A stretch of 32,655 nt of DNA from Colwellia sp. GTDB taxonomy: Bacteria > Pseudomonadota > Gammaproteobacteria > Enterobacterales > Alteromonadaceae. Where the stretch lies: the NCBI GenBank assembly GCA_022969215.1, contig JALJPA010000029.1:1-32655 (forward strand), written 5' to 3'. How positions within the stretch are numbered: the stretch's first letter is position 1; each line of letters begins with the position of its first letter. The notes below the pieces were generated by a model. The model did not search any database and was not told the DNA's origin. It saw only the letters and a program-made list of their open reading frames with translations. The translations under genes and the position numbers were made by a program. Shown piece after piece: positions 3,580-21,860 of the stretch.

Positions 3580-4407
3580 TTAGAAACGCCATACAGCAAG
3601 AAGCTGTGCTGCATTATCATCAGTACCTTTTTCACCTAGTTTATTTTTCCAGTATTGGTATTCAATACCAACGAATAAACGTTGTGCTTTTTGTCCTAAT
3701 ACTTCACCTAAATCCAAACGAATTTGCGGTTGAAATAGAATCCATGATTCTAACTCGGTAGTGCCAAAGTTATTAACTTGGCTACGGCCATCGATATACT
3801 CTAAGTGACCTTCAATGCTCCAGCTTGTAGAACCAATTTTAAATGGATAAGCCCAAGAAAAATCAACCATAAAACTAGAGTCTTCATCAACTACGGTAAA
3901 GACCGGAGAATCTGCACTGCCACCACCTTGATGGATATAACCAGTTACATCTATTTGCGCAAAAGCAAAACCAGGTAGGTCTAGTGCAAATCTCACACCC
4001 GGTAATACCCAAGCACTGTTTACTTCAGGAGCGAAGTTAAAACCTGCGACTATACCGATATCTTTTACCGGACCAAAACTGAGGTCATTACCCGTGATCG
4101 CGCCTAAACTAAAGTTTGAATACCACTCACCATAAAGCTCACTTGAGTCGGATACAGGGAAGTTAGCATCGTTATTCACTGAGTAACGTGAGTAATCCAT
4201 AAAGAAGAAGTTATCGCCGTATTCCCAACCGCCAGCATGTTGGAAGGTGATGATGGTAGTATCCGCGGTGCCACCGGTACCCACTCGTTCTAATTCACCT
4301 AGTGCTTGAATTTGAACTTCGGTATTGCTCCAGATTTCTGCAGATGCCATTGGTGCAGATAATGCTGCAGTTAATGCAAGTGCGGTAAGTGATGCTTTCA
4401 TATTCAT
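3580..4407 (-). CDS. Tsx-family (OmpK-like) nucleoside-specific outer membrane channel
   Basis: A 275-aa outer membrane beta-barrel. The signal peptide covers residues 1-23 (cleavage after MASA, before EIWSNTE). The mature part has alternating aromatic strands, the GGWEYGDNFFFMDYSR segment near residues 59-74 typical of the Tsx/OmpK channel family, and ends in AVWRF, the C-terminal phenylalanine used for barrel insertion. Tsx channels let nucleosides cross the outer membrane. The gene is first in a minus-strand unit with the purine-type permease and is divergent from the aminotransferase. The palindromic operator at 4501-4516 lies about 95 bp upstream of its ATG. Together this suggests that an outer and an inner membrane purine importer are induced as one unit (inference). 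Confidence 0.85.
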   Translation of the reverse strand: MNMKASLTALALTAALSAPMASAEIWSNTEVQIQALGELERVGTGGTADTTIITFQHAGGWEYGDNFFFMDYSRYSVNNDANFPVSDSSELYGEWYSNFSLGAITGNDLSFGPVKDIGIVAGFNFAPEVNSAWVLPGVRFALDLPGFAFAQIDVTGYIHQGGGSADSPVFTVVDEDSSFMVDFSWAYPFKIGSTSWSIEGHLEYIDGRSQVNNFGTTELESWILFQPQIRLDLGEVLGQKAQRLFVGIEYQYWKNKLGEKGTDDNAAQLLAVWRF

Positions 4408-6672: not shown

Positions 6673-7302
6673 TTACTCAGTTAAACCACAACCTTTTAAG
6701 ATAATGCTAGTTAGTGATGCCACGACCTCATCAAAATCCTCATCATTCATCGCTTCTTTACCAAAACCAGCCAGTACTTGCACATTAAAATCAGCATAAT
6801 GCTGGGTTGAACTCCAAATAAGAAATAACAAATGATATGGGTTAATAGCGTCTATTTGGCCTTGTTTAATCCAAGTCTCTATTACGGCAATTTTTTCATC
6901 TAACCATTGTTTGAATTCAGTATGTAAGTAATCTTTTAGAATCGGAGCGCCATGGATCATTTCACTGGCGAAAATCTTTGAACCATCAGGATCATGCTTA
7001 GCATGCATAATTTTTTCTTGGATATAAGCAGTAAGAACCGTTTTAGGGTCATCATCAACACTTAAGGTATCAAAGCTAGTATTCCAATTGACAGTAATCT
7101 CGCTAAGTAATTGTTGATAAAGCTCAGTTTTATCATTGAAATAGTAGTGAATGTTTGCTCTGGGAATATTGGCTCGTTCGGCAATGCGCTTAATAGAGGC
7201 ACCTTTAAAACCGTGAGTAACAAACTCTGTTTTGGCCGCAGTTAAAATAAGCGCGACGTTCTTTTGACGAACTTGTCCGACAGACTCTTTTTTTACCGGC
7301 AC
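6673..7302 (-). CDS. TetR-family regulator, RutR-like
   Basis: A 209-aa cytoplasmic repressor-type protein. The N-terminal helix-turn-helix is clear: ASIKRIAERANIPRANIHYYF (about 35-55) followed by KTELYQQLL. The C-terminal part (IFASEMIHGAPILKDYL; LIWSSTQHYADFNVQV) matches the ligand domain of RutR/YcdC, the E. coli regulator of pyrimidine and purine breakdown that binds uracil or thymine. The start is a GTG at 7302 with GAGG upstream; no in-frame ATG exists nearby upstream. It lies inside the purine island, between glcB and DUF4442, and the two 16-bp dyads at 4501 and 21845 resemble the RutR operator. No such dyad lies in front of this gene itself, so strong autoregulation through that site is not evident. 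The ligand is probably a purine intermediate (inference). Confidence 0.85.
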   Translation of the reverse strand: MPVKKESVGQVRQKNVALILTAAKTEFVTHGFKGASIKRIAERANIPRANIHYYFNDKTELYQQLLSEITVNWNTSFDTLSVDDDPKTVLTAYIQEKIMHAKHDPDGSKIFASEMIHGAPILKDYLHTEFKQWLDEKIAVIETWIKQGQIDAINPYHLLFLIWSSTQHYADFNVQVLAGFGKEAMNDEDFDEVVASLTSIILKGCGLTE

Positions 7303-7552: not shown

Positions 7553-9742
7553 TTAATGCGCTGCTTTTACTTCCAGACGTCTTTTGTGTAATAACGGCTC
7601 GGTATAACCGCTGGGTTGCTTTTTACCTTGGAAGATTAAATCTGTCGCGGCTTTAAAGGCAATACAATTGTCAAAGTTGGTTGCCATAGGGCTGTAACCA
7701 GAATCGCTAGCATTTTGTTTATCAACAATAACGGCCATGCGTTTTAGTGATTCATTTACTTGTGATTCAGTAATGATGCCATGGTGCAGCCAATTGCAGA
7801 CATGTTGACTCGAAATTCTTAAGGTAGCTCTATCTTCCATACGGGCAATATTATCAATATCAGGTACTTTTGAGCAGCCAACACCTTGGTTTACCCATCG
7901 ACCAACATAGCCTAAAAGGCCCTGAACATTATTGTCTAATTCTTTTTGAATCTCTTCAGCTGATAATTGCTCACGATTTTTTAGTAAAGGAATCGTTAAC
8001 AAGTCAGTTAAGTCATCAATGTTGCCAGGCTTAGTAAATTCAGCTTGCATAGCAAATTGTATTTCTTGAACATTGACCTTGTGATAATGCATTACATGTA
8101 AAGTTGCCGCAGTTGGTGATGGCACCCATGCACAGTTAGCACCTGATTGTGGGTGTGCGATTTTGCTCTGCATCATATTCGCCATTTCATCAGGAATAGC
8201 CCACATGCCTTTACCAATTTGCGCCTTACCTTGCAAACCGGCTTTTAAACCAATACGAACATTTCTGTTTTCGTAAGCTTCAATCCAAGGTTCGTGTTTC
8301 ATCAATTCTTTTTGTGTAACAGGACCCGCTAACATACTGGTATGTATTTCATCACCAGTACGATCTAAAAAGCCCGTATTGATGAAAGCAAGACGGGTTT
8401 GTGCGGCGCGGATACACTCTTTTAAGTTAGCAGAGGTGCGACGTTCTTCATCCATAATACCCATTTTAATGGTGTTTTCTTCTAAACCTAATACACGTTC
8501 GACCGCGCTGAATAAATCGTGACTAAAGGCTACTTCTTCAGGGCCATGCATTTTAGGTTTTACAATATAAATGCTACCTGCTTTAGAGTTGGTAAATTTA
8601 GAGTTACCTTGTAGGTCGTGCAGAGATATTAAGCTGGTAATTAAACCGTCAACAATACCTTCTGGAACATTCTCATCGTTTTCGTTAACAATCGCGTCAG
8701 TAGTCATTAAATGGCCGACGTTACGGATAAATTGTAAACTTCTTCCTGAAAGAGTAAACGCTTCTTTAGTCGGAGATAAGTAGCTACGATCTTCATTCAA
8801 TGTACGGGTAATGGTTTTATCACCCTTTTGAATGCTTTCTGTAAGGTCACCTTTCATTAGACCTAACCAGTTGCGATATACCAAGGTTTTGTCCATTGGA
8901 TCAACGGCGGCAATAGAGTCTTCACAATCTTGGATAGTACTTAACGCAGATTCTAATACCACATCTTTAACAGAGGCTGCATCAGTTTTGCCAACGATAT
9001 TGTCTTTATCTATCTGAATTTCAATATGTAAACCGTTATGACGACATAATAATGCCGTCGGATATAAAGTTGAACCAGTGTAGCCAACAAATTGGCTAGC
9101 ATCTTTTAATTGAACTTTTTCACCGGATAATAGGGTGACAGTAAAGCTCTTGTGCTCAATGTGGTAACGAACTGCATTGATATGACTGCCACTGCTTAGT
9201 GGCAGGGATTCATCAAGAAATCTACGGGCGTAAGATTGAACTCTACGGCCACGAGCTGGATTATATTCTTTAGTTGCTTTAGCACCGTTATCGTCGCCGA
9301 TAACATCAGTGCCATATAAAGCATCATACAAACTTCCCCAGCGAGCATTGGCTGCATTGAGAGAAAATCTAGCATTCATCAAGGGTACAACGAGTTGAGG
9401 ACCCGCAATGCGGGCAACCTCGTCGTCGACATTCTTGGTTGAGATAGTGAAATCAGCTTGTTCTTCTACCAGATAACCTATCTCTTTTAAAAACAACTCA
9501 TAGCTCGGTTGATTAAAAGGTTGGTTGGCAGGATCCGTATGCCATGTATCAATTTGCGCTTGTAAACTCGCGCGCTTTGTCAATAACTGTTGATTACGCG
9601 GGGTAAACTCAGTTAAAACCTCGGCAACAGAATCCCAGAAGTGATCGGCAGTAATACAAATGCCAGGTAACACTTCATCATTTACTAAATTAAATAAACA
9701 GCCTGCAACTTTATAACCGTGCTTGATTGTTTTTTGCTTCAT
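7553..9742 (-). CDS. glcB: Malate synthase G
   Basis: Condenses glyoxylate with acetyl-CoA to malate in the cytoplasm. At 729 aa it has the length of the monomeric G isoform (about 720 aa), much longer than malate synthase A. Recognisable blocks include the N-terminal GICITADHFWDSVAEVL region, the GRSLQFIRNVGHLMT segment, the IVKPKMHGPEEVAF segment and MGIMDEERRTSANL, which carries active-site residues. The ATG at 9742 has AAGGATAAG in front. It is the last gene of the train, 63 bp after puuD, and ends at a strong terminator. In most bacteria glcB goes with glycolate oxidase genes; here it is placed to capture the glyoxylate released from ureidoglycolate. Confidence 0.95.
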   Translation of the reverse strand: MKQKTIKHGYKVAGCLFNLVNDEVLPGICITADHFWDSVAEVLTEFTPRNQQLLTKRASLQAQIDTWHTDPANQPFNQPSYELFLKEIGYLVEEQADFTISTKNVDDEVARIAGPQLVVPLMNARFSLNAANARWGSLYDALYGTDVIGDDNGAKATKEYNPARGRRVQSYARRFLDESLPLSSGSHINAVRYHIEHKSFTVTLLSGEKVQLKDASQFVGYTGSTLYPTALLCRHNGLHIEIQIDKDNIVGKTDAASVKDVVLESALSTIQDCEDSIAAVDPMDKTLVYRNWLGLMKGDLTESIQKGDKTITRTLNEDRSYLSPTKEAFTLSGRSLQFIRNVGHLMTTDAIVNENDENVPEGIVDGLITSLISLHDLQGNSKFTNSKAGSIYIVKPKMHGPEEVAFSHDLFSAVERVLGLEENTIKMGIMDEERRTSANLKECIRAAQTRLAFINTGFLDRTGDEIHTSMLAGPVTQKELMKHEPWIEAYENRNVRIGLKAGLQGKAQIGKGMWAIPDEMANMMQSKIAHPQSGANCAWVPSPTAATLHVMHYHKVNVQEIQFAMQAEFTKPGNIDDLTDLLTIPLLKNREQLSAEEIQKELDNNVQGLLGYVGRWVNQGVGCSKVPDIDNIARMEDRATLRISSQHVCNWLHHGIITESQVNESLKRMAVIVDKQNASDSGYSPMATNFDNCIAFKAATDLIFQGKKQPSGYTEPLLHKRRLEVKAAH

Positions 9743-9805
9743 TTCTTATCCTTTTTCTTTATCTTTCATTTGGCTCAATACCAATTCAAATAATGTTCTT
9801 TAAGC

Positions 9806-10993
9806 TTATTTGATTTGGTTTAACCAAAGTGACAAGGTTAAACGCTCTTCGTCAGTCATTTTGGTTTTATTCATAAAGGGCATATCTTTGCTGTCGATTA
9901 CACGCGCTTTGATTCTTGGTGCCCATTGCTCAATTGAAGCTGCATCAGTAAAGAGCACACCACCTTGAGCTGTTTGGAAGATATTATCGGTGTTATTTTC
10001 GCTATGACAAGCACTACAACGTTGTTCAACAATTTTTTGCACATCAGCGATAGTAACTTTTTGTGCTAGTTGCTCTGGAGTTGCTTCAAGTTTTGCAGGT
10101 GCAATAGCATAAGCTAAAGCAATTGTCGCAACAATTGAACCAACTATAAGCATAGGCTTGTTTCTACCAAAGTGACGTTGTACGAAATACTCTCTGATCG
10201 CAGCACCAATTAAGATAAGTGCTATTAATACAATCCAACCAGCATTGTGGTTATATGTCATTGGGTAGTGATTAGAAATCATGATGAAAATTACCGGTAA
10301 GGTAATGTAAGTATTATGGGTAGAACGTAACTTAGCATTTAAACCATATTTTGAATCAGGCTTACTTCCGTCTTCAACGGCTTTAACTAGTGCACGTTGT
10401 GAAGGCATGATACCGAAAAATACGTTGCCAGCCATGATAGTACCCATAACAGCACCCATATGCATGTAAGCACCACGTGGGCTAAATACTTGCATTAAGC
10501 CGTAAGATAACGCTGTACCAAGTGCTAATAAGATAATACCTAGAATTAAACCGTGATCTTTAAGTTTAGTACGAACTAGCACTTCATAAGCACCAACACC
10601 AACAATAATAGTACCTAGACCGTATGCAATTGCTTGCATTTGAGTCATATCAGAACCCGTTGGGATCAGGTAAGTTTCAGCACCAACATAAAACATTAGT
10701 ACTAATAAGAAGAAACCTGTAATCCAAGTTGTGTATGCTTCCCACTTAAACCAATGTAAAAGTGTTGGCATTTTTTCTGGCGCTAGTTTGTATTTAGCGA
10801 CTTCGTAAAAACCACCACCATGGATAGCCCAAAGGTCACCTGAAATACCTTTTTCTGCTTTCCAATCCGGTGGCGTTTCTAAATGGTTATCTAACCAAAC
10901 AAAATAAAATGAAGCACCAATCCAGGCGATACCTGTAACAACATGTGCAAAGCGAATGGCTAAGTTTAGCCAATCTGTAATATACGGGTCCAT
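9806..10993 (-). CDS. puuD: Membrane-bound urate oxidase with C-terminal cytochrome c domain
   Basis: Oxidises urate to 5-hydroxyisourate. The 395-aa protein has about eight hydrophobic segments between residues 10 and 300 (the urate oxidase N-terminal domain), with conserved HVVTGIAWIGASFYFVWLD (17-35) and STHNTYITLPVIFIMISNHY (224-243). After a helix at about 281-300 comes a cytochrome c module: CSACH (326-330) binds heme and Met371 or Met374 in DMPFMNKTKM is the likely sixth ligand. PuuD enzymes pass electrons to cytochrome c instead of oxygen, so no hydrogen peroxide is made. No uricase of the soluble UOX or FAD HpxO type is seen, so this is the only urate-oxidising gene in the island. 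The ATG at 10993 has AAGGAAAG upstream. A 224-bp spacer separates it from guanine deaminase. Confidence 0.95.
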   Translation of the reverse strand: MDPYITDWLNLAIRFAHVVTGIAWIGASFYFVWLDNHLETPPDWKAEKGISGDLWAIHGGGFYEVAKYKLAPEKMPTLLHWFKWEAYTTWITGFFLLVLMFYVGAETYLIPTGSDMTQMQAIAYGLGTIIVGVGAYEVLVRTKLKDHGLILGIILLALGTALSYGLMQVFSPRGAYMHMGAVMGTIMAGNVFFGIMPSQRALVKAVEDGSKPDSKYGLNAKLRSTHNTYITLPVIFIMISNHYPMTYNHNAGWIVLIALILIGAAIREYFVQRHFGRNKPMLIVGSIVATIALAYAIAPAKLEATPEQLAQKVTIADVQKIVEQRCSACHSENNTDNIFQTAQGGVLFTDAASIEQWAPRIKARVIDSKDMPFMNKTKMTDEERLTLSLWLNQIK

Positions 10994-11112
10994 AGTCTTT
11001 CCTTTTGTACGCCTACTCGAAGTCGACGTTTTATAATTTTATGATTAACTAAATTTTTATCTAAATAGCTTTACTCAATAGCGTGTTGAATAACTCTTTT
11101 CTCTTAAGCGAT

Positions 11113-11137
11113 GTTGCCTTAGACCCAGCTAGGCAAC
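11113..11137 (-). other. Intercistronic hairpin, guanine deaminase to puuD gap
   Basis: GTTGCCTTAG / CTAGGCAAC pairs over 9 bp with one bulge and a 6-nt loop. It lies in the 224-bp spacer and has no T tract on the coding strand. The rest of this spacer shows no gene or clear promoter. Confidence 0.4.
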
Positions 11138-11217
11138 TTTCTGTTATATGTAGTACTGGTATTTTTATTAGCTTCTTCGCCTGTAGTAAGTGAAGCGCTT
11201 TAATTTACCTTAGTGAA

Positions 11218-12543
11218 TTAAATGCGTTCTCCCATGATATGGGTGGCTTTAACGTGCCTATCATCACCTAATATACTTAAGGCAAATAGTTTTTCTGTTA
11301 AGGTTTTACAGCGAGCAATACGTCTTGCCATTAGCGGTGTTGCTTGGTAATCAAGTACGATAAAGTCAGCTTCAGCGCCTTTAGTAAAGTTACCAATAGT
11401 CCCCTCTAAATCTAAAGCAACCGCGCCACCTAAAGTCGCTAGGTAGAATGATTTAAACGGGCTTAATTTATCGCCACGTAATTGTTGGGTTTTATAAGCT
11501 TCATTTAATGTCGTTAACATTGAGAAGCTTGTACCTGCGCCGATATCAGTACCTAAACCTACATTTACATCGAATTCCTCAGCTTGTTTTAAATTAAAAC
11601 AACCGCTGCCTAAAAATAGGTTGGAAGTAGGGCAGAAGGCAATGGCTGAATTGGTATCACTTAAACGCTGACATTCATGGTCATGTAAATGTACACCATG
11701 AGCAAAAACACTACGACGACCTAATAAGCTGCTTTTGTCGTAAACATCTAGATAACCGTCACTGTCTGGGAATAACTCACTAACCCAAGCAATTTCGTCT
11801 TTGTTTTCTGAAAGGTGAGTGTGCAGGTAAACATCAGGGAATTCTTTTAATAATTCACCGGCTTTGTTTAATTGCTCAGTTGAACAAGTAGGTGCAAAAC
11901 GAGGGGTAACCGCATAAAGTAAACGGTCAGTGTTATGCCACTTTTCAATTAATGCTTTGCTGTCTACGTAGCCTGACTCAGTGGTATCTTGTAAGTCATC
12001 AGGGCAGTTTTGGTTCATCAAAACTTTACCACAAATCATACGTAATTTTTTCTGTTGAGCAATAGTGAAGAAGGCTTCAACAGACTCTTTATGTACTGTA
12101 CCGAAAACTAAGGCCGTAGTAGTACCAGCATCTAATAGTTGTGTTAAGAAAAATTCAGCAACACGTTTACCGTGTTCAATATCAGCGAATTGTTTTTCTT
12201 CTGGGAAGGTGTAGTTTTCTAACCACTCAAGTAATTGCGCACCGTAAGAAGCAATCATCTCAGCTTGTGGATAATGTACATGAGTATCAATAAAGCCAGG
12301 CATGATTAGGCCATTGTCATATTGAGTAACCTTAATATCTGCTGCGAGTGTTGCTAGTAATTCCTGCGCATTACCTACCGCTTCAACTAAGCCATCTTTG
12401 ATGACTAAAAGTCCATCTTCAAAATATTGGTAACTTTCTTCTTCAGATACTTTCGCCGGGTCGGCTAAAAAATGCAGTATCTCACCGCGGTACGCTTTGG
12501 TACCTGTGTTAGTTGAAGAACTGTTTGAAGTATTATTAGACAT
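11218..12543 (-). CDS. guaD: Guanine deaminase
   Basis: Converts guanine to xanthine and ammonia, feeding xanthine dehydrogenase. The 441-aa amidohydrolase has the metal-binding PGFIDTHVH (H88, H90), HTHLSEN (H241, H243), FAHGVH (H282) and GLGTDIGAG (D333), all expected for a zinc guanine deaminase, as is the PQAEMIASYGAQLLEWLENY segment just after the first HxH, typical of GuaD. The N-terminus is Ser/Thr/Asn-rich (2-15) before TKAYRGEILHF. The ATG at 12543 is used. It lies in the train between ureidoglycolate lyase and puuD. Confidence 0.95.
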   Translation of the reverse strand: MSNNTSNSSSTNTGTKAYRGEILHFLADPAKVSEEESYQYFEDGLLVIKDGLVEAVGNAQELLATLAADIKVTQYDNGLIMPGFIDTHVHYPQAEMIASYGAQLLEWLENYTFPEEKQFADIEHGKRVAEFFLTQLLDAGTTTALVFGTVHKESVEAFFTIAQQKKLRMICGKVLMNQNCPDDLQDTTESGYVDSKALIEKWHNTDRLLYAVTPRFAPTCSTEQLNKAGELLKEFPDVYLHTHLSENKDEIAWVSELFPDSDGYLDVYDKSSLLGRRSVFAHGVHLHDHECQRLSDTNSAIAFCPTSNLFLGSGCFNLKQAEEFDVNVGLGTDIGAGTSFSMLTTLNEAYKTQQLRGDKLSPFKSFYLATLGGAVALDLEGTIGNFTKGAEADFIVLDYQATPLMARRIARCKTLTEKLFALSILGDDRHVKATHIMGERI

Positions 12544-12624
12544 ATTGGTAAACCTATTACTTATTTTATTGCTATCTATTTGTGCTGCTATTTATACTAG
12601 CTGCACTAAATTAATTAATTTTTT

Positions 12625-12656
12625 ATAATTCGATTCATCAAGGTGAATCAAATTAT
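12625..12656 (-). other. Intercistronic hairpin after the ureidoglycolate lyase gene
   Basis: ATAATTCGATTCA and TGAATCAAATTAT pair at 12 of 13 positions around a 6-nt loop. It starts 4 bp after the allA stop. On the coding strand it is followed by AAAAAATT and not by T residues, so it is not a standard terminator. Confidence 0.5.
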
Positions 12657-12659
12657 TGA

Positions 12660-13169
12660 TTATTCTGCTAGCGTGATAACGATTGAACCGTCGAGTTTTT
12701 CAACATCGCAGTTATCGCCTTCACCGCCACGGTCAACAACTAAAAAGTCGCTAACTTCATTCAACGCTAAACAGAAATGGTGCCAAGTACCTTTATGGTA
12801 ATTAACACCTTGCTCTGCTGTCGCTAGAAATACTTCAATTTTTGCAGTATCAAGCTCGCCTTTGGGTGCAACAACAACCACATAAGGTTGTTTGCCTGTA
12901 GGAATAAACGCTTGGCTGCCTAAAGGATGGCGTTCCATCATTTTGACAGGTAAAGGAAAAGCCAGCGGGGTGGAACGAAAAATATTAATCAAGGTTTTAC
13001 CCTCTTGCTCAGCAACGTCAACGTCAGCAAGATTATGATAACGCATGGTGTGGCCATCATTAATGGCGAAATGTTCAGCACTTTCGGACACTGAAATAAC
13101 ATCCCCATAAGCGGAGAAATTCTCTGCCGTTAGCTCTTGGGGTACAACATTAATGATTTTACTGGTCAT
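12660..13169 (-). CDS. allA: Ureidoglycolate lyase
   Basis: Cleaves (S)-ureidoglycolate to glyoxylate and urea, the last step of the ureide pathway here. The 169-aa protein shows the family pattern: ENFSAYGDVI near the N-terminus (about 16-25), FRSTPLAFPLPVKMMERHPLG (about 64-84), SQAFIPTGKQPYVVVVAP, then YHKGTWHHFCLAL and FLVVDRGGEGDNCD. The cupin-like fold and the HPLGSQAF and WHH segments are those of AllA/DAL3 enzymes. Its product glyoxylate is used by glcB downstream. The ATG at 13169 has AGAGAGA in front. Confidence 0.92.
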   Translation of the reverse strand: MTSKIINVVPQELTAENFSAYGDVISVSESAEHFAINDGHTMRYHNLADVDVAEQEGKTLINIFRSTPLAFPLPVKMMERHPLGSQAFIPTGKQPYVVVVAPKGELDTAKIEVFLATAEQGVNYHKGTWHHFCLALNEVSDFLVVDRGGEGDNCDVEKLDGSIVITLAE

Positions 13170-13281
13170 CTTAATCTCTCTGTTAACGGTTAATATTTTT
13201 CTACTGGCTTGAAACTGTTGCTATCTACTAGTTAAGTGCTACTTAGCTATTACTAAAAAGTAGATTATTGATACTGAGCGA

Positions 13282-13623
13282 TTAGCTACCACGGTAAGTA
13301 GAGTAGCCATATGCTGTTAGCAATAATGGAATATGGTAATGAGTACCGCTGGCATCAATTTCAAAAACGATATCAACGTATGGGTAAAACCCTTCTTCTT
13401 TGTTCGCGGCAAAATATTGTGCCGTGGCAAAATGCATACGGTAAACACCTGCTGGTAATTTTTCATCATCAGCTAATAAACCGGGTAAACGACCATCAGT
13501 ATTAGTAACTCCGCCGTTTATCTCTTTCCAGCCTTCGCCGTCTTGAGCAAACAACGTAATTGGAACATTTTGCGCAGGTAAACCACGGGTTGTATCTAAT
13601 ATGTGAGTAGTAATTTGACTCAT
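13282..13623 (-). CDS. uraH: 5-hydroxyisourate hydrolase (transthyretin-like)
   Basis: Hydrolyses the unstable PuuD product 5-hydroxyisourate to OHCU. At 113 aa it has the usual length for cytoplasmic enzymes, with no signal peptide. Diagnostic residues are present: THILDTTRGLPA at 6-17 (active-site H7), R45 in NTDGRLPGLL, HYHIPLLL (H96/H98) and the C-terminal YRGS tetrapeptide that separates hydrolases from true transthyretins. The start codon at 13623 has a good AAGGAAAG. It follows the decarboxylase gene by 38 bp. A 64-codon ORF on the opposite strand is a shadow. Confidence 0.95.
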   Translation of the reverse strand: MSQITTHILDTTRGLPAQNVPITLFAQDGEGWKEINGGVTNTDGRLPGLLADDEKLPAGVYRMHFATAQYFAANKEEGFYPYVDIVFEIDASGTHYHIPLLLTAYGYSTYRGS

Positions 13624-13661
13624 ATTCTTTCCTTAAAATTTATCTTAACTGGTGTTTGGGG

Positions 13662-14174
13662 CTAGCTTTCAGCTAATGCTTTATCAATGCGCAGTTGGAA
13701 GATTTTTCTTTGCTCTTCAGCAGCATTAACAAGCTCTTGCGCTCGGCTGTTTGGTAAACGAGCTTGCAATAAATCAGACATTTGTTGAGCACTTTTACCC
13801 GTTGCACAAACAATAAAGATAAAGCCGAATTTTGCTTCGTAATCGCTGTTACCTTGAGAAAGAACTTCCAGCACAGTGTCGTTAGCTTCTTTTACTAATC
13901 CTTGCTCGTTACCGGCTAATTCTTTGGTATTGGCATACTTAGCACGTAGGCTACTAACATCACCAATCTTTGGATGACCTTCAAAGGCTTCAAAATAATC
14001 CTGCTCAGTTAAACCTAACCAAGCATCATCAGCAGCTTTTTTTATCGCCTGCGTATTAGCAAATGGACGAGCTACCACCATGTTGTTTACCCAAGTACTT
14101 GAAGTACAACATTGCATAAACGTATGGTTAGCATCAGCTGCTGGTAATTGGTTTAAATCTTCTAATAACATCAT
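13662..14174 (-). CDS. uraD: OHCU decarboxylase
   Basis: Decarboxylates 2-oxo-4-hydroxy-4-carboxy-5-ureidoimidazoline to (S)-allantoin. The 170-aa protein has the catalytic HPKIGD motif (67-72, catalytic His67), the SLRAKYANTKELAGNEQ segment (75-91, which includes the usual E-Q pair) and KFGFIFIVCATGKSA near the C-terminal half, all signature elements of UraD. Two in-frame ATGs (14174 and 14171) stand next to AAGGAAAC; the second has the better spacing, so the start is uncertain by one codon. No peroxisomal-type or secretion signal is present. Confidence 0.95.
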   Translation of the reverse strand: MMLLEDLNQLPAADANHTFMQCCTSSTWVNNMVVARPFANTQAIKKAADDAWLGLTEQDYFEAFEGHPKIGDVSSLRAKYANTKELAGNEQGLVKEANDTVLEVLSQGNSDYEAKFGFIFIVCATGKSAQQMSDLLQARLPNSRAQELVNAAEEQRKIFQLRIDKALAES

Positions 14175-14197
14175 GTTTCCTTAAATCTTTACTGCAA

Positions 14198-14232
14198 ATT
14201 AGCAGCGGCATTTAGTCAATGCCGTTGCTAAT
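14198..14232 (-). other. Strong intercistronic hairpin, allantoicase to uraD gap
   Basis: ATTAGCAGCGGCATT and AATGCCGTTGCTAAT pair over 15 positions with one mismatch around the loop TAGTC. It starts 9 bp after the allantoicase stop and fills half of the 66-bp gap. On the coding strand no T tract follows, so it is better read as an mRNA 3'-end or processing element than a terminator. Confidence 0.6.
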
Positions 14233-14240
14233 CGTGTTAA

Positions 14241-15299
14241 CTAACCTTGGCGGTTACCAAAAACACGCATACGAGAAATACCACCATCAGGGAAGATACT
14301 TAAACGCACATGAGTGAAAGGCTGATCTTTTTCAACAATGATTTCTTTAGTGAATAAGTGTTCACGATGAGCATATAACTTAGTACTTGGAATAATTGCT
14401 GTCCAAGTTACGCTGGCTGCGCCTTTAGTGAAGTCATCGCTATCGCTGATACAACCTTCAAGCATAAAGGTATCAGGGAAATTACCTTTAAAGTGACAAG
14501 TATCAATGATGACTTTGTTAACACTACCGGTAGCGGCAAGTTTAACAATTGACCAATCTGGACCTGGATCACGACGACGTTTAGTTTCCCAACCATCACC
14601 CATGTTGGCGCCACGGCCAGGCATGATTAGGTTGTTTTTGTCTGAGAAGAACATATCAGAAACTAATAATGCTTTTGCACCGTTTTTAATCGAAGCTAGG
14701 TCGATTAGTTCACCGTCTACAAAATCATTCCAGTTTACATCTGCTTCACCGTAAACGCGGAAACGAGCAATACCACCGTCAGGGAACATAGTTAAACGAA
14801 CATGGGTATAAGCCGTGTCGTCTGAGATTTCAAAAAGGTTTTGGCTATGAGCTTTAACTTCAGTAGCTTCAAAAATAGTTTGCCAAACAGTATCTTCATT
14901 TGGTTGAACTTCACTTACACAAGCTTCTACAGATACTTTCTCTGGCGCGTTACCACGGAAATAGTTGGTATCAATATCAAAAGCTCGGATAACACCACTG
15001 ATGCCTAAACGGATAATACACCAATCAGAGTCACGACCATTGTTACGACCGTAACTTCTGCGTGATTCCCAACCGTCCATCCATTTACCACGTTCAGTAA
15101 ATTTCTCTTCGATGAAAATACCACGGCCAACTTTTAATAAGTTTTCCATTTCAGAAAAGAAATCATCACTACATGAAAGCGTTTCGCCACCAACTTTTTC
15201 GCTGGCTAAATCAACATAATGTGTTTTTAGTTTTTGCTCTAGCACTGCATCTTCGGCAGATAATTTATTTTGTGCTAACCAATCTTCAATTATTTCCAT
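14241..15299 (-). CDS. alc: Allantoicase
   Basis: Hydrolyses allantoate to ureidoglycolate and urea. The 352-aa protein is built from two tandem allantoicase repeats of about 140 residues (roughly 38-184 and 208-348), seen from paired blocks: DGWESRRS (75-82) with DGWETKRR (235-242), FDIDTNYFRGNAP (107-119) with VIIDTCHFKGNFP (263-275), and RLTMFPDGGIARFRVYG (168-184) with RLSIFPDGGISRMRVFG (332-348). The ATG at 15299 has a strong AGGAGA. Having allantoicase and not allantoate amidohydrolase means that both ureido nitrogens leave as urea and no ureidoglycine is formed. Confidence 0.95.
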   Translation of the reverse strand: MEIIEDWLAQNKLSAEDAVLEQKLKTHYVDLASEKVGGETLSCSDDFFSEMENLLKVGRGIFIEEKFTERGKWMDGWESRRSYGRNNGRDSDWCIIRLGISGVIRAFDIDTNYFRGNAPEKVSVEACVSEVQPNEDTVWQTIFEATEVKAHSQNLFEISDDTAYTHVRLTMFPDGGIARFRVYGEADVNWNDFVDGELIDLASIKNGAKALLVSDMFFSDKNNLIMPGRGANMGDGWETKRRRDPGPDWSIVKLAATGSVNKVIIDTCHFKGNFPDTFMLEGCISDSDDFTKGAASVTWTAIIPSTKLYAHREHLFTKEIIVEKDQPFTHVRLSIFPDGGISRMRVFGNRQG

Positions 15300-15322
15300 T
15301 ACTTCATCTCCTGTTAACGCTA

Positions 15323-15353
15323 CGTTAGCTGAGCCTATTCGGCTGAGTTAACG
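15323..15353 (-). other. Intercistronic hairpin, allantoinase to allantoicase gap
   Basis: CGTTAGCTGAGCC and GGCTGAGTTAACG form a 13-position stem with two imperfect positions around TATTC. It lies about 25 bp upstream of the allantoicase start, close to its AGGAG. No T tract follows. Confidence 0.45.
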
Positions 15354-15452
15354 TGCGTGAGTTATCTTCTGTTTTTTTGTTTTTAATGCCTGCTAATAAC
15401 GCGCGGGTAAGTCTAACTATTGACCTTCGTACCTTGTGATACGAACAACCGC

Positions 15453-16808
15453 TTACAGCTGACCTTTAAGTAGCGGTCGGCCTACTGGCGTGTTAATGAA
15501 TTCATCTTGTTGATACACATGATGGCCACGGACAAACGTATGGTTTACTTGACCCTGCACCTTACGACCCGCATAAGGGGTAATGTTGTGTTTGTGTTTG
15601 ATCATTTCAGTGGTAATGGTGTATTCAACAGTTGGATCAAATACACAGAAATCAGCATGATTTCCTATTTTAATCGCGCCTTTAATACCATCTAAGCCAG
15701 CGAACTTAGCTGTTTCAGTAGACATCAAACGTGCTAGATCCACTAGGGTAAAACCACGGTCTTTGGCTTCAGTCCAAATTAACGATAAACCAAATTGCAG
15801 TGCTGAAATACCACCCCAGGCTTTTTCAATATCGCCAGTATCAATATGTTTTAATTCCGGTGTACAAGGCGAGTGATCAGAAACGATAAAGTCTAAGCGG
15901 CCATCTTTAACGGCTTGCCATAAGTGTTCACGGTTTTTGTTTTCACGGATTGGCGGACAACATTTGAATAGAGTTTTACCATCAGGAATATTTTCAGAGG
16001 CAATGGTTAAATAATGAGGACAAGTTTCAGCAGTAAAACGTAAACCTTCTGCTTTGGCTTGTGCAATAGTGCTCAATGCTTCATCAGAGGATAAGTGCAC
16101 GATATGAACTTTACAGTTATCACCGGCAGCTTTAGATTCACGAGCCATATCAACCATTAACGAGATAGCATCGTTTTCCCAACTCTTTGGTCGTGATGCT
16201 AAGAACGAGTTGTATTCTTTGGTGATTTCAACATCATCAAAATGGCCACAATCAAGCTCTGCGTGGATCAAGTAAGGCACATCATGTTTGGCTAAAATAG
16301 GCATAGCCGCACGCATGTCTTTTGCTGAAACAGGTGGGAACTCTTCGATACCTGAATCAATTAAGAAAGATTTAACACCTAAAACACCTGCGTTAAGTAA
16401 GTCATCTAAATCATCAATATTGTGTGGCACAACACCACCCCAAAAACCACAATCAACCCAAAGTTTGTCGTGTACAGAATCAAGTTTTTCTTGAAAAGCG
16501 GCTTTGGTCGTTGTTACTGGAATACAGTTCAACGGCATATCAACTAAGGCAGTAATACCACCAGCAGCAGCAGCTTGGGTTGCGGTATTAAAACCTTCCC
16601 ATTCAGTACGGCCTGGTTCGTTAATGTGTACATGCGAGTCAACTAGACCTGGCATGATAACTTGTTCGCCAAAGTCTTTAACTTCGCAGCTTAGCGCTTC
16701 GCCATGACTATGAATGGCAATGATTACTTCATTTTTAACTTCAATACAAGCCGCGATCATTTTTCCTGCAATCACTACTTGGGTACTTTGTAGAGCAAAA
16801 TGGGTCAC
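15453..16808 (-). CDS. allB: Allantoinase
   Basis: Opens the allantoin ring to allantoate. The 451-aa amidohydrolase of the dihydroorotase/allantoinase class shows both metal sites: DSHVHINEPGRTEWEGF (57-73, H59 and H61), the carboxylated lysine in GVKSF (K146), IHAE (H182), IVHLS (H238) and VSDHSPC (D311). FNTATQAAAAGGIT and ETCPHYL (261-267) are typical of AllB. The start is GTG at 16808 with GAGGAG eight bases upstream; the next ATG would lose the first strand of the beta domain. Three inverted repeats fill the gap to xdhC upstream. Confidence 0.95.
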   Translation of the reverse strand: MTHFALQSTQVVIAGKMIAACIEVKNEVIIAIHSHGEALSCEVKDFGEQVIMPGLVDSHVHINEPGRTEWEGFNTATQAAAAGGITALVDMPLNCIPVTTTKAAFQEKLDSVHDKLWVDCGFWGGVVPHNIDDLDDLLNAGVLGVKSFLIDSGIEEFPPVSAKDMRAAMPILAKHDVPYLIHAELDCGHFDDVEITKEYNSFLASRPKSWENDAISLMVDMARESKAAGDNCKVHIVHLSSDEALSTIAQAKAEGLRFTAETCPHYLTIASENIPDGKTLFKCCPPIRENKNREHLWQAVKDGRLDFIVSDHSPCTPELKHIDTGDIEKAWGGISALQFGLSLIWTEAKDRGFTLVDLARLMSTETAKFAGLDGIKGAIKIGNHADFCVFDPTVEYTITTEMIKHKHNITPYAGRKVQGQVNHTFVRGHHVYQQDEFINTPVGRPLLKGQL

Positions 16809-16866
16809 CTTGCTACTCCTCTAAATTGATAAACCTGAACGTTTTAAATGTGTTTTAAAAAATGAG

Positions 16867-16923
16867 CCTGACTCGGTTTAATTAACTTTATTGGTAATAA
16901 CGCTTTGTTAAACCGAGTTCAGG
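16867..16923 (-). other. Long inverted repeat between xdhC and allantoinase
   Basis: CCTGACTCGGTTTAA (16867-16881) and TTAAACCGAGTTCAGG (16908-16923) are complementary over 15 bp with a single bulged base, around a 26-nt loop. It occupies the middle of the 178-bp gap upstream of the GTG start of allantoinase. No T tract follows in the direction of transcription. Confidence 0.55.
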
Positions 16924-16928
16924 TCAGT

Positions 16929-16948
16929 AAATATGTGCGAGCATATTT
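16929..16948. other. Short AT-rich inverted repeat in the xdhC-allB gap
   Basis: AAATATG (16929-16935) and CATATTT (16942-16948) form a 7-bp stem with loop TGCGAG, followed by TTTATTT on the plus strand. It has terminator shape only in the direction opposite to the genes. Confidence 0.35.
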
Positions 16949-16966
16949 TTTATTTAAACTTCTACT

Positions 16967-16994
16967 TGAGCTAACTTCTGAGTTTGTTAGCTCA
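16967..16994 (-). other. Inverted repeat overlapping the xdhC stop codon
   Basis: TGAGCTAAC and GTTAGCTCA are a perfect 9-bp pair with a 10-nt loop; the xdhC stop codon (16987-16989) lies in the first arm. On the coding strand AGTAGAAGTTT follows, which is not a standard U tract. Confidence 0.5.
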
Positions 16995-17883
16995 CTTCTT
17001 CGTTGACTAATCTTTTTAACTCTTGCCAAGCAATACCGCGTTTTGAGCTTTTTGGCTTGGCGTCTTTTTGTCTATTGGCGTCTGGATTGGCAACGCTATT
17101 GGCAGCCAACTGGGCTTGATAAAGCTGAATGATTTCACCTGCAACTGACACGGCAACTTCCATTGGCAATTTGCCTTGTACTTGTGCTAAGCCAATAGGA
17201 CAGTTCATCTTCTCTACTAAGCTTTTTTCAATATCGCGGTGTTGAAATCTTTGTTGAAAACGACGCCATTTGGTATCAGAAGCAATTAAGCCTGAATAGG
17301 CAAAGTCAGCGCGCTTTAGAATATTATGACTAATCTCAAAATCGAGTTGATGATTATGTGTCATTACTATGTAGTAACTGTTTGCCGGCATAGCAGCAAC
17401 TTCTTCAGCAGGCTCTTCGCTAACTATCGCAGTGACATTTGAATAACTGTCGATATCATCAGGAAATTGTTCAGCGCGGTTATCAACCCAAGTTATGCTA
17501 CAAGGTAAACCCGCTAGAATAGGGATTAGTGCTTTACCAACATGACCAGCACCAAATAATATTATATTGGCACCACTAGCGCTAAAACATTCAAATAATA
17601 CGCTGGCATCACCACCGCAACATTGACCTAATTGTGCACCTAGCTGGAAATGCTCAAGTTGTTGACAAGCTTCACCGGAAGTCAACAATTGATGAGCACG
17701 TTTAATCACCTTATGTTCAAGATGACCACCACCGATAGTGTCAAAAATATCATCATTAGTTATCACCATTTTGGTGCCACTATTACGTGGCGTTGAACCG
17801 GTTACACCGACAATTGTGGCAACAACATAGGCTTTGCCTTGTTTGTTTAGTTGGTGTACTGCACCGGTCCAATTTAACTTCAT
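16987..17883 (-). CDS. xdhC: Xanthine dehydrogenase accessory protein XdhC
   Basis: Binds molybdenum cofactor and delivers the sulfurated form to XdhB. From the ATG at 17883 the protein has 298 aa. The open frame extends 26 codons further, into xdhB, but the ATG at 17883 has a good site (TAGGTAGGAAT) and the extra residues look like read-through of a basic stretch, so the shorter form is chosen. Visible are GVTGSTPRNSGTKM near the N-terminus (XdhC/CoxI domain), TIGGGHLE, a glycine-rich nucleotide fold FGAGHVGKAL, and VMTHNHQLDFE (XdhC C-terminal Rossmann domain). The last 30 residues are lysine/serine-rich. It starts 28 bp after the xdhB stop. Confidence 0.93.
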   Translation of the reverse strand: MKLNWTGAVHQLNKQGKAYVVATIVGVTGSTPRNSGTKMVITNDDIFDTIGGGHLEHKVIKRAHQLLTSGEACQQLEHFQLGAQLGQCCGGDASVLFECFSASGANIILFGAGHVGKALIPILAGLPCSITWVDNRAEQFPDDIDSYSNVTAIVSEEPAEEVAAMPANSYYIVMTHNHQLDFEISHNILKRADFAYSGLIASDTKWRRFQQRFQHRDIEKSLVEKMNCPIGLAQVQGKLPMEVAVSVAGEIIQLYQAQLAANSVANPDANRQKDAKPKSSKRGIAWQELKRLVNEEVS

Positions 17884-17911
17884 GATGATATTCCTACCTA
17901 TTAAGGGCGAA

Positions 17912-20299
17912 TTACTTCGCCGTACCCGCTGTGGTTGATGCTTTAACTGCTTCAACAGCAAATAACACTCGCTCTGGCGTTGCAGGTGTATCTAGTGCTG
18001 GACTAACTTTGTAGTCAGCTACACTAGCAATAGCATCTTTCATTGCCGACCATACCGCCATACCTAACATAAACGGTGGCTCACCAACTGCTTTTGAGTT
18101 GTAAATAGTGCGCTCTGGGTTTGGAGCATTGGGTACTAACGCTACGCGGAAGTCTTCAGGTGCATCATTGATAGCTGGAATCTTGTATGTTGCCGGGTTG
18201 TTTGAAAGTAAACGACCTTGCTCATTCCATACGAGTTCTTCAGTTGTTAACCAACCCATGCCCTGAACAAAAGCACCTTCGATTTGACCGATATCAATCG
18301 CTGGGTTAATTGAAGCACCAACATCTTGTAAAATATCAGTACGGGTAACTTTATACTCACCCGTTAAGGTATCTATGATTACTTCAGAAACACAAGCACC
18401 TGTTGCGAAGTAGTAGAATGGACGTCCTTTACCAGCAGCACGATCATAGTGAATCTTAGGTGTTTTGTAGAATCCTGTAGAAGATAATGAAACACGATTC
18501 ATGTAAGCAATTTGCGAGAACTCAGCAAAGCTAAAGGTTTGCTCACCAACAATAACATTGCTGTTTTCAAATTGAACTTGTCCAGCTTCAACGTCATATT
18601 TCTCACAAGCAAAGTCAATTAAACGTTGCTTGATGGTTTTAGCAGCCGCTTCAGCCGCTTTACCATTTAAGTCGGTACCTGAAGAGGCAGCTGTAGGAGA
18701 TGAGTTTGGCACTTTATCAGTACGAGCAGCAGAACAAGCAACAGTATCAACATCAACTTGGAATTCTTCAGCAACGATTTGCGCTACTTTAGTATTCAAG
18801 CCTTGACCCATCTCAGTACCGCCGTGGCTTAAGTGAATTGTGCCATCAGTGTAAACATGAACGAGTGCACCCGCTTGGTTTAAATGCTGAACAGTAAAAG
18901 AAATACCAAATTTAACCGGTGTTAAGGCAATACCTTTTTTCAGTATGCTGCTATTAGCATTATATTCAGTGATCGCTTTACGACGTGCTTGGTAATCTGA
19001 ACTTTCTTCTAATGAGTCAATAATTTCGCTTAAGTTGTTATGTTCAACTGTCTGATCATAATGGGTAACGTTGCGATCATCTTTACCGTATAAGTTAATT
19101 TTACGGATTTCTAATGGATCTTTACCAAGGTGACGGGCAATATCATCCATGACCATTTCGATAGTCATCATACCTTGAGGACCACCAAAACCACGGTAAG
19201 CGGTATGAGAAACAGTGTTTAGTTTACAACGGTTACCGGTAATAGTTGCTTGATCTAAGTAGTAAGCGTTATCAGAGTGGAACATTGCTCTATCAACAAT
19301 CGCATCAGATAAATCTGGTGAGTAACCACAGTTACCATTTACTTCGATGTTGATGCCTTTGATTTGACCATTTTCGTCAAAACCAACGGTGTAGTTGTTT
19401 TCAAATGGGTGACGTTTACCTGTCATTACCATATCGTCTAAACGTGCTAACTTAAACTTAACTGGACGTTTTGTTTCATTAGCAAGTAAAGCGGCAATAC
19501 ATGCCCAAGGTGCAGCTTGGGTTTCTTTACCACCGAAACCACCACCCATACGGCGCATATCAACTAAAACTTTGTTTAATGGAATATCAAGTACTTCAGC
19601 TACTAACTTTTGTACTTCACTTGGATGTTGTGAAGAAGTGAAGATGCTCATGCCACCATCTTCAGTAGGCTCTGCCGTTGAAACTTGGCCTTCAAGATAC
19701 ATATGCTCTTGACCACCAACAACGATTTCACCAGATAATTTATGCGCTGCAGCTGCAATCGCTGCGTCTGAATCGCCACGTTTCAAACCATGTGGAGGAC
19801 GAACAAAGTTTTTCTTAGCTAGAGCGTCTTTCACTGTAAGTACAGCTTCAAGTTCTTCATACTCAACTTTTGCAAGTTTAACTGCTTTACGGGCAAGGTC
19901 GAAACTGGTTGCAGCAACGGCGAAAAGCGGTTGACCAATAAATTCTACTTTACCAATAGCTAATACTGGGTCACCTGGGAATACCGGACCGATATCAGTA
20001 TGACCTGGTACATCTTCAACAGTAATTACTGAAACAACACCTTCTGCAGCTTTAACTGCAGATAAGTCCATTGAAATGATGTTAGCGTGTGCCATAGTCG
20101 ATTGACCAACCGCGGCATGTAATTCGCCACGAAGAGAAGGACGGTCATCAACATAAATCGCTTCACCAGCAACTTGTTTGTCAGCACTTTCATGTTTTTT
20201 GTGAGTACCAACGCCACCTAAACCAACACCAACTTGACCTTCAACAACATTTTTATCTGTGTTTGAACTAGCTTTTTTTACATCAATTAGAGTACGCAT
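17912..20299 (-). CDS. xdhB: Xanthine dehydrogenase, molybdopterin-binding subunit
   Basis: Large subunit that oxidises hypoxanthine to xanthine and xanthine to urate. The 795-aa length matches two-subunit bacterial enzymes such as Rhodobacter XdhB. Molybdopterin contacts are seen in GGQEHMYLEGQ, RRMGGGFGGKETQ, AYRGFGGPQGM, GGTEMGQGLNTK and SPTAASSGTDLNG; the catalytic base is E740 in KAVGEPPFML near the C-terminus. The start overlaps the xdhA stop as TAATG, so the two subunits are translationally coupled. No Tat signal is present, so the enzyme is cytoplasmic. A 63-codon ORF inside it is a shadow. Confidence 0.97.
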   Translation of the reverse strand: MRTLIDVKKASSNTDKNVVEGQVGVGLGGVGTHKKHESADKQVAGEAIYVDDRPSLRGELHAAVGQSTMAHANIISMDLSAVKAAEGVVSVITVEDVPGHTDIGPVFPGDPVLAIGKVEFIGQPLFAVAATSFDLARKAVKLAKVEYEELEAVLTVKDALAKKNFVRPPHGLKRGDSDAAIAAAAHKLSGEIVVGGQEHMYLEGQVSTAEPTEDGGMSIFTSSQHPSEVQKLVAEVLDIPLNKVLVDMRRMGGGFGGKETQAAPWACIAALLANETKRPVKFKLARLDDMVMTGKRHPFENNYTVGFDENGQIKGINIEVNGNCGYSPDLSDAIVDRAMFHSDNAYYLDQATITGNRCKLNTVSHTAYRGFGGPQGMMTIEMVMDDIARHLGKDPLEIRKINLYGKDDRNVTHYDQTVEHNNLSEIIDSLEESSDYQARRKAITEYNANSSILKKGIALTPVKFGISFTVQHLNQAGALVHVYTDGTIHLSHGGTEMGQGLNTKVAQIVAEEFQVDVDTVACSAARTDKVPNSSPTAASSGTDLNGKAAEAAAKTIKQRLIDFACEKYDVEAGQVQFENSNVIVGEQTFSFAEFSQIAYMNRVSLSSTGFYKTPKIHYDRAAGKGRPFYYFATGACVSEVIIDTLTGEYKVTRTDILQDVGASINPAIDIGQIEGAFVQGMGWLTTEELVWNEQGRLLSNNPATYKIPAINDAPEDFRVALVPNAPNPERTIYNSKAVGEPPFMLGMAVWSAMKDAIASVADYKVSPALDTPATPERVLFAVEAVKASTTAGTAK

Positions 20300-21768
20300 T
20301 AGTTATTCACCACTCGTGTTTCAATTACGTTACTTGTATAGGCGCTTTGTAGCTCTATATAGCACTTTTCAATAAGGTTCTGAGCCACGGTCATACGGTA
20401 CTTATCAGAAGCACGTACATCAGTCATAGGTTGGAAATCAGATGCTAAAGCTGCTTTTGCTTGTGCAACAGTCTCTTTAGTTAAGCCTTTACCTAATAAT
20501 GCCGCTTCAGCAGCTGAACCACGCTTAGGAATACCAGCCATGCCACCAAATGCTAAACGTACATTTGTTACTTTTTGACCATCTTGCTCAATGAAGAATG
20601 CTGCTAATACCGCAGAAATATCATCATCTAAACGTTTAGAGATCTTGTAAAGCTTAAGTGTTTGACCAGCAACTGGCTTAGGAATTGTAATTGACTTGAT
20701 AAATTCAGAAGTTTTCAGCACAGTCTTTTTGTAATCAAGAAAGTAGTCTTCAACTAAAATTGTACGCTCTACGCCGTTAAGGTGTAGTGTCATTGTTGCG
20801 CCAAGAGCGATAAGTGCAGGAGGCATATCACCGATAGGTGAAGCGTTACCTACGTTTCCGCCTAAAGTACCAGTGTTACGTACTTGTTTGGCTCCAATAC
20901 GTTCGATCATATCACCCAAGTCAGGGTAGTTATGATGTAAAGTATCGATAAACTCGCTGTAAGGTACCGCTGAACCGATAACTATTTCAGTATCAGTTTC
21001 TTCCATAGTCGTTAATTCAGCAACATTACCGATATAAACAAGCTTTTTAACAACGGCTAAGTTTTGCGTAACTGAAAGCGCTAAATCGGTTCCACCAGCA
21101 AGTAACGTTGATTTAGGCTCTCTGACTAATTCAGTCGCTAACTCATCAATGTTCTTAGGAGCAATATAAGTATTACCATTGCCATTTAATGTTGGTGTTG
21201 GTAATTTTTCGAATTCGTTAAGCGTAGCAAGTGTTTCTTGATAGAACTTAGCAAAAGAATCATCAGCAGTATTTTCGCTTGAAGTAATTGCAGCATCAAT
21301 AATAGAACGGTAGCCAGTACAACGACATAAGTTACCCGCTAAAGCTTCAAGAACTTCATCACGATTTGGGTTTTGATTATGTTTGTGTAAAGCAAAAGAA
21401 GACATTACAAAACCAGGGGTACAGAAACCACATTGTGTACCATGGTTGTCTACAATAGTTTGTTGGGCGTGATGTAACTTAGCGCCGTCTTTCAAATCTT
21501 CAACTGTAATTAGTTGCTTACCGTGTAAGTTACCAACAAAGGTAATACAAGCATTAACTGCTTTGTAGTTAAGTTGTTTGCTGTTTTCAGCATCTAGCTC
21601 AGCTAACACTACGGTACATGCACCACAGTCACCTGAAGCACAACCTTCTTTTGTACCAGATTTAAATTGTTGCTCACGTAAGTATTGTAAAACAGTCGTA
21701 TTAGGATCTAAGTTTTCAATCTCTACAACATCGTTGTTCAACAGGAATTTTATTGTATTTGCTACCAT
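20299..21768 (-). CDS. xdhA: Xanthine dehydrogenase, FeS/FAD subunit
   Basis: Small subunit that carries electrons from the molybdenum centre to NAD. The 489-aa protein has an N-terminal ferredoxin-like [2Fe-2S] site (C43, C48, C51, C74), the second [2Fe-2S] site (C113, C116, C148, C150 in CGFC and CRC), then the FAD domain with LLAGGTDLALSV and RNTGTLGGNVGNASPIGD. It is the first gene of the train; its ATG at 21768 is 77 bp from the operator at 21845-21860, and GGAAAGAAT lies just ahead of it. The gene order xdhA-xdhB-xdhC with TAATG coupling is the common one. Confidence 0.97.
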   Translation of the reverse strand: MVANTIKFLLNNDVVEIENLDPNTTVLQYLREQQFKSGTKEGCASGDCGACTVVLAELDAENSKQLNYKAVNACITFVGNLHGKQLITVEDLKDGAKLHHAQQTIVDNHGTQCGFCTPGFVMSSFALHKHNQNPNRDEVLEALAGNLCRCTGYRSIIDAAITSSENTADDSFAKFYQETLATLNEFEKLPTPTLNGNGNTYIAPKNIDELATELVREPKSTLLAGGTDLALSVTQNLAVVKKLVYIGNVAELTTMEETDTEIVIGSAVPYSEFIDTLHHNYPDLGDMIERIGAKQVRNTGTLGGNVGNASPIGDMPPALIALGATMTLHLNGVERTILVEDYFLDYKKTVLKTSEFIKSITIPKPVAGQTLKLYKISKRLDDDISAVLAAFFIEQDGQKVTNVRLAFGGMAGIPKRGSAAEAALLGKGLTKETVAQAKAALASDFQPMTDVRASDKYRMTVAQNLIEKCYIELQSAYTSNVIETRVVNN

Positions 21769-21825: not shown

Positions 21826-21853
21826 ACTATAGCAGAATAAATAGTTGACACAA
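21826..21853 (-). promoter_or_regulatory. Candidate promoter of the xdhA-glcB gene train
   Basis: On the minus strand TTGTGT (21853-21848) and TATAGT (21831-21826, 5 of 6 to the -10 consensus) are 16 bp apart. The -35 element lies inside the operator 21845-21860, which would let a bound repressor block polymerase. Confidence 0.5.
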
Positions 21854-21860
21854 GTGTCAG
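21845..21860. promoter_or_regulatory. Palindromic operator upstream of xdhA (site 2)
   Basis: TTGACACAAGTGTCAG differs from site 1 (4501-4516) by one central base. The half sites TGACAC and GTGTCA are perfectly symmetric. It is 77 bp upstream of the xdhA ATG and overlaps the candidate -35. Apart from this control region, the spacer to 22248 holds only a small inverted repeat (TGTAAA / TTTACA, 21873-21891) and no gene that I can support. Confidence 0.75.

Follow-up and report, generated by a model that had tools for sequence, protein, structure and literature searches.

Organization of the purine catabolism locus

The window analysed here is a 32,655-nt stretch of a Colwellia draft genome (G000; 5.04 Mb in 434 contigs, 87% complete), and the nearest named genomes are Colwellia as well, with 90–92% identity in the TetR protein discussed below. 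Its minus strand carries a gene train from xdhA to glcB (7553..21768), which is the 14-kb purine train of the initial annotation; the genes were assigned by profile matches and are presumably read as a single transcript. The order is xdhA, xdhB, xdhC, allantoinase, allantoicase, OHCU decarboxylase and HIU hydrolase, after which the train continues with further genes: ureidoglycolate lyase, guanine deaminase, urate oxidase (Urate_ox_N family) and malate synthase G (glcB). A terminator-like hairpin of 14 pairs (7514–7480, minus strand), identified by consensus match only, lies after glcB and before the gene for a RutR-like TetR protein, the candidate regulator (6673..7302, minus strand; PF08362 and PF00440, with Arg48 in the recognition helix). 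The minus strand also holds tsx (3580..4407), coding for a Tsx-type outer-membrane channel that matches PF03502 above its cut-off. On the plus strand, a class-V aminotransferase gene (4595..5716) has alanine-glyoxylate aminotransferase as its nearest solved relative, with PucG further down the list of structural matches. Beyond tsx lies a permease-like open reading frame of 513 aa (ORF; 1931–3472) that had no Pfam match at E ≤ 1e-5 or NCBIfam match at E ≤ 1e-3; outside the window, a single locus (L141) among the stretches searched gave a match to it.

Two copies of a candidate palindromic operator and their promoters

A 16-bp palindrome, termed here the A box (YTGACAC-NN-GTGTCAR; the xdhA-type form is TTGACAC-NN-GTGTCAA), is present twice. 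Operator 2 (TTGACACAAGTGTCAG, 21845–21860) is located 5' of xdhA, and operator 1 (TTGACACATGTGTCAG, 4501–4516) in the intergenic region between tsx and the aminotransferase gene. The coordinates confirm what the initial annotation had noticed, namely that the two sites differ at one central base and lie 17 kb apart (17.3 kb by coordinates). Its distance of 77–92 bp to the start codons is correct for xdhA (ATG at 21768) and has to be amended for operator 1, which is 79–94 bp from the aminotransferase ATG (4595) and 94–109 bp from the tsx ATG (4407).

A scan of the window allowing up to three mismatches returned four matches against 0.29 expected, a number reached by none of 100 shuffles; these were both operators, operator 1 again on the other strand, and one stray match at 17807. 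In the whole draft genome, exact matches to TTGACACAWGTGTCAG occur at operators 1 and 2 only. Relaxing the search to YTGACACNNGTGTCAR yields one more site at 14/14, which is CCGG-centred and lies within an EAL-domain ORF, and six sites at 13/14; read backwards, the pattern is found at one place. Self-regulation of tetR through an A box of its own was considered and dropped, as the window has nothing of at least 12/14 besides operators 1 and 2.

The candidate xdhA promoter proposed earlier, TTGTGT-16-TATAGT overlapping the operator, is present on the minus strand as described. Its −35 hexamer (TTGTGT, 21853–21848) lies within operator 2 and has 3/6 consensus bases, and a 16-nt spacer leads to TATAGT (21831–21826), which with the TG ahead of it forms the candidate extended −10 element TGCTATAGT (21826..21834). 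The −35 match is weak, and the pair is absent from the output of a consensus promoter scan. In relatives, an extended −10 element (TGnTATAnT) was found 3' of the xdhA box in 14/25 distinct promoters compared with 0.2% in shuffled sequences, usually at a distance of 13 nt. Because the element follows the box in these promoters, the box is predicted to cover the −35 region. An operator lying over the core promoter, the arrangement of a ligand-released repressor, is thus predicted here.

The candidate regulator is related to RutR and differs from it in a DNA-contact residue, the proposed operator and the gene neighborhood

The protein encoded at 6673–7302 scored 45.5 bits against PF00440 (cut-off 24 bits) and 167.6 bits against PF08362 (cut-off 25 bits), which places it in the TetR family with a RutR-type C-terminal domain. 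Its best match in the PDB is E. coli RutR (PDB 3loc, 4jyk, 6z1b), a TetR-family protein of pyrimidine utilization, with a gapless alignment over residues 17–205. Scores against the RutR equivalog models remained below their thresholds (TIGR03613, 176.6 of 368 bits; NF011584, 151.3 of 230 bits), and the gene adjoins purine genes, at the end of the purine cluster, instead of pyrimidine-utilization (rut) genes.

The RutR operator has the letters TTGACCANNTGGTCAA, and we refer to the RutR-like palindrome TTGACCA-NN-TGGTCAA as the B box. Set against these letters, the xdhA boxes of the Arg48 clade (TTGACAC-NN-GTGTCAA) share the outer letters and have CAC/GTG in place of CCA/TGG as inner letters. 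The proposed targets are purine genes. What is common to both systems is the 16-bp length of the palindrome and the set of uracil-contacting residues, as given in a RutR study (PMC10891134): RutR W77, Y97, W167, Q171 and Q179 correspond to W73, Y93, W163, Q167 and Q175 of the window protein, which are kept in 105, 97, 105, 105 and 103 of 105 distinct proteins, respectively. RutR K52, which the same text equates with a guanine-contacting lysine of QacR (PMC10891134), aligns with residue 48. This DNA-contact position is Arg in the window protein; across the 105 distinct proteins, 54 have Arg there and 51 have Lys. Within positions 47–53, residue 48 alone fully separates the two groups, which were themselves defined by that residue, and position 38 separates them almost as well.

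The box is conserved at both entry points and its class follows the TetR protein

A TetR relative at E ≤ 1e-40 was found in 80/147 genomes of the family, and 26/147, counting the window's own, have a best protein that shares at least 53% identity with the window TetR. A 14/14 A box occurs somewhere in 22 of these 26 genomes as compared with 10 of the remaining 121 (Fisher P 9e-15). Among the ten, eight boxes are CCGG-centred, one lies inside an ORF (G100) and one precedes xdhA in a genome that is 85% complete and has no TetR relative at E ≤ 1e-5 (G048). The four exceptions among the 26 carry weaker boxes: one of 12/14 before xdhA (G040), ones of 13/14 upstream of xdhA (G080 and G057), and one of 12/14 before guanine deaminase in a genome where xdhA was not found (G008).

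For a survey of promoters, we collected up to 40 kb around each orthologue together with 80 named loci, giving 117 stretches. Of these, 69 were dropped for having no xdhA start or less than 150 nt before it, and 48 provided usable xdhA upstream regions. Five of the 48 had been selected via their box, have no TetR gene on the contig and are all 14/14 A by selection; the remaining 43 comprise 28 rows with an Arg48 protein and 15 with a Lys48 protein. An A box of at least 12/14 precedes xdhA in 23/28 Arg48 rows and 0/15 Lys48 rows, and a B box of at least 12/14 in 1/28 and 11/15, respectively; the rows are not independent, and one (L154) repeats another (G091). In shuffled regions, A boxes of at least 12/14 arose in 18/4800, B boxes of at least 12/14 in 5/4800, and 14/14 A boxes in 0/4800. 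In the sole B-positive Arg48 row (L175), the match is a single hybrid 12/12 box next to an A box. In the five Arg48 rows with no box in the 400 nt before xdhA, the box is further upstream: at 13/14 and ~390 nt from xdhA in one (G124), and at 14/14 on the tetR side of a longer tetR–xdhA stretch in four (G130, G069, L169 and L171). The four Lys48 rows that lack a B box include a Pseudomonas with nothing above 9/14.

At the other entry point, a box of at least 13/14 precedes the aminotransferase gene in 12/12 distinct loci, three of which (G101, G003 and G052) have two boxes. The box moves with the front of the operon: in four Paraglaciecola loci with an Arg48 regulator and no xdhA nearby, a box of 13 or 14/14 precedes allantoicase. 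These data support the interpretation of the initial annotation that one operator stands at both entry points of purine use. Its proposal of a single two-promoter regulon fared well in that the operator is conserved at both points and tracks the TetR protein, a regulator that the initial annotation did not identify. The two promoters may not be the full set, given a 13/14 box before bhcBCD in the same genome and boxes at receptor genes of a nucleoside locus in one related genus, and the regulon is probably larger in some relatives.

Arg48 and Lys48 paralogues coexist in single genomes

In a protein tree, the Arg48 proteins form one clade (93/82), and 92% of 200 bootstrap trees show a single change; the association of Arg48 with the A box thus counts as one evolutionary event. 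That residue 48 alone sets the operator code is no more than a hypothesis: the tree holds one switch, and position 38 is nearly as separating. Two Shewanella genomes with an Arg48 regulator and adjoining purine genes (L149 and L157) fall inside a Colwellia/Thalassotalea group of the tree, possibly by transfer of the purine cluster.

Of the 26 Arg48 genomes, 24 encode one or more additional RutR-like proteins (E ≤ 1e-40). The window's genome has a second one on contig C268, 41% identical, with the helix LPKANILYY and Lys48. Its neighbors, as read by eye from the translations, are udk, nupC, deoC, tdk, deoA and an outer-membrane receptor gene, and in a relative (G061) the corresponding udk, nupC, deoA and receptor genes were identified by scan. 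Contig C268 carries, upstream of deoA, the one 14/14 B box that the genome has, along with two of 13/14 and two of 12/14, and seven further 13/14 B places are on other contigs. Lys48 is present in every one of the 24 additional paralogues examined from Arg48 genomes (20 plus those of G000, G013, G061 and G095; those of G041, G120, G130 and G069 were left out). Within the loci of the 20, of 3.4–5.7 kb each, a B box of at least 12/14 was found in 16/20 and a 12/14 A box in 2/20. Four family genomes in which a Lys48 protein leads xdhA were examined (G047, G082, G141 and G089), and each has only one RutR-like protein. In three genomes (G061, G013 and G095), A and B boxes stand close together at promoters of receptor genes in the nucleoside locus.

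Tentatively, with slightly less than even confidence, we propose that RutR-type paralogues are insulated by this operator split. The change from Lys48 to Arg48, perhaps with position 38, would have turned CCA/TGG into CAC/GTG and uncoupled purine catabolism from nucleoside salvage; a Thalassomonas-like genus would then have brought the two signals together again by setting both boxes at promoters of receptor genes in the nucleoside locus.

Proposed mechanism of purine regulon control

Based on the sequence comparisons, we consider it quite probable that the A box is the operator of the RutR-like TetR repressor encoded at 6673–7302, which holds off both promoters until a purine metabolite binds, and that this operator diverged from the B box together with the Lys to Arg change at position 48. 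First, a TetR dimer on operator 2 would cover the −35 region of the xdhA promoter, while a dimer on operator 1 would occupy the tsx/aminotransferase intergenic region, leaving both promoters off. A metabolite of the purine pathway would then enter the RutR-type pocket and release the repressor. Release would allow uptake through tsx, production of the enzymes leading from xanthine to glyoxylate, and production of the glyoxylate sinks, malate synthase G and the aminotransferase. The Lys48 paralogue of the same genome goes with B boxes at nucleoside-salvage genes.

Since the uracil-holding residues of RutR are kept, the inducer probably shows an -NH-CO-NH-CO- ring edge. Allantoin is probably the first candidate, followed by urate or xanthine, all three of which would have the imide edge of uracil in common. 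Allantoin is favored because the box stays before allantoicase where the locus has no xdhA, and because, according to a P. aeruginosa study, allantoin stimulates the gcl/glyoxylate cluster near the RutR-type gene PA1504, whose role is not yet known (PMC12694930).

Alternative readings of the box

The box might be read by another, unlinked regulator, for example the reader of a CCGG-centred motif with the same half-sites, TTGACACCGGTGTCAA, which by its appearance we take to be LacI-like. Each of six family members, all with no TetR orthologue (G017, G045, G063, G111, G113 and G138), has three to five copies of that motif, which is probably the operator of another regulator. The A box before xdhA in G048, where no TetR relative was detected, points the same way, as do 14/14 A boxes that precede pgi genes in some genomes, once beside a LacI gene. 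However, none of the surveyed xdhA boxes is CCGG-centred, and the class of the xdhA box follows the class of the TetR protein, which is unexpected for an unrelated regulator. We regard this reading as unlikely.

Some TetR-family proteins are activators. The TetR protein could accordingly bind the box as an activator or co-regulator and not as a simple repressor, and RutR has been called an indirect activator of carAB in one report (PMC10891134). The box overlaps the predicted −35 region, and the extended −10 element usually follows 13 nt further on, which argues against activation; this reading is somewhat less likely still.

Formation of a transcription terminator or RNA hairpin by the palindrome is highly improbable: a scan does mark 21843–21862 on the plus strand as terminator-like, but the palindrome is upstream of the predicted xdhA −10 element, the nearest listed plus-strand ORF (at least 100 aa) upstream ends at 6596, ~15 kb away, and operator 1 repeats the palindrome with no T-run, so that for operator 2 this reading was rejected on position. 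A chance match, to which the 12/14 A boxes in shuffles (18/4800) and the six 13/14 places in the genome might lend something, has a negligible probability and was rejected by the window shuffles, the genome scan, the 0/4800 shuffles with a 14/14 box and the conservation of the boxes at both promoters.

Relation to known regulators

Control by a TetR repressor through a palindromic operator is of a known kind, and XdhR of Streptomyces is a TetR-family regulator of purine catabolism. AllR controls the same pathway as the TetR repressor proposed here but belongs to the IclR family; it responds to glyoxylate (PMC11323563). PA1504 of P. aeruginosa is likewise a RutR-type TetR protein beside purine/glyoxylate genes, a likeness drawn from its published description (PMC12694930). 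The Pseudomonas relatives of the window regulator have Lys48, and their boxes, where seen, are B-type. Among the best literature matches, by title and the start of the abstract, we found no description of the operator class, the purine regulon or the paralogue split. Taxon-specific changes in the RutR motif have been noted in a work in whose accessible text 'xdh' is absent (PMC5343134), and RegPrecise may therefore contain part of the operator and regulon findings.

The repressor reading supplies a candidate protein, operator and set of targets through which Colwellia and its relatives would control the complete purine-to-glyoxylate catabolism. It also predicts roles for uncharacterised RutR-like genes beside gammaproteobacterial purine clusters, with B boxes expected where residue 48 is Lys. 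The Arg48/Lys48 split between paralogues in single genomes offers a compact, testable case of duplicated repressors escaping cross-talk, and the retained uracil-type pocket suggests that a purine-derived ring may have taken over as the ligand.

Further A-type boxes

One of the six 13/14 places in the window's genome (contig C90, 29516–29531; L139, 4017–4032), identical in G135, lies between a divergent BhcR-like IclR gene that scores below cut-off and bhcB, bhcC and bhcD, the beta-hydroxyaspartate cycle genes, which pass their NCBIfam cut-offs. G048 has a 14/14 box that is flanked on one side by an IclR gene and on the other by the start of a similar dehydratase ORF. The bhcBCD box is possibly a third promoter site, linking purine-derived glyoxylate to the beta-hydroxyaspartate cycle, or may be the divergent IclR-family protein's own site.

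Phosphoglucose isomerase genes are preceded by 14/14 A-type boxes in five loci, the gene being identified by Pfam in two (L124 and L130) and by ORFs of like size in three (L132, L133 and L134); at L124, the box has a divergent LacI-family gene. A further 14/14 A-type box (L128, 4049–4064) precedes a TonB plug-domain receptor gene, which adjoins an amidohydrolase gene whose product is 24% identical to the guanine deaminase of the window.
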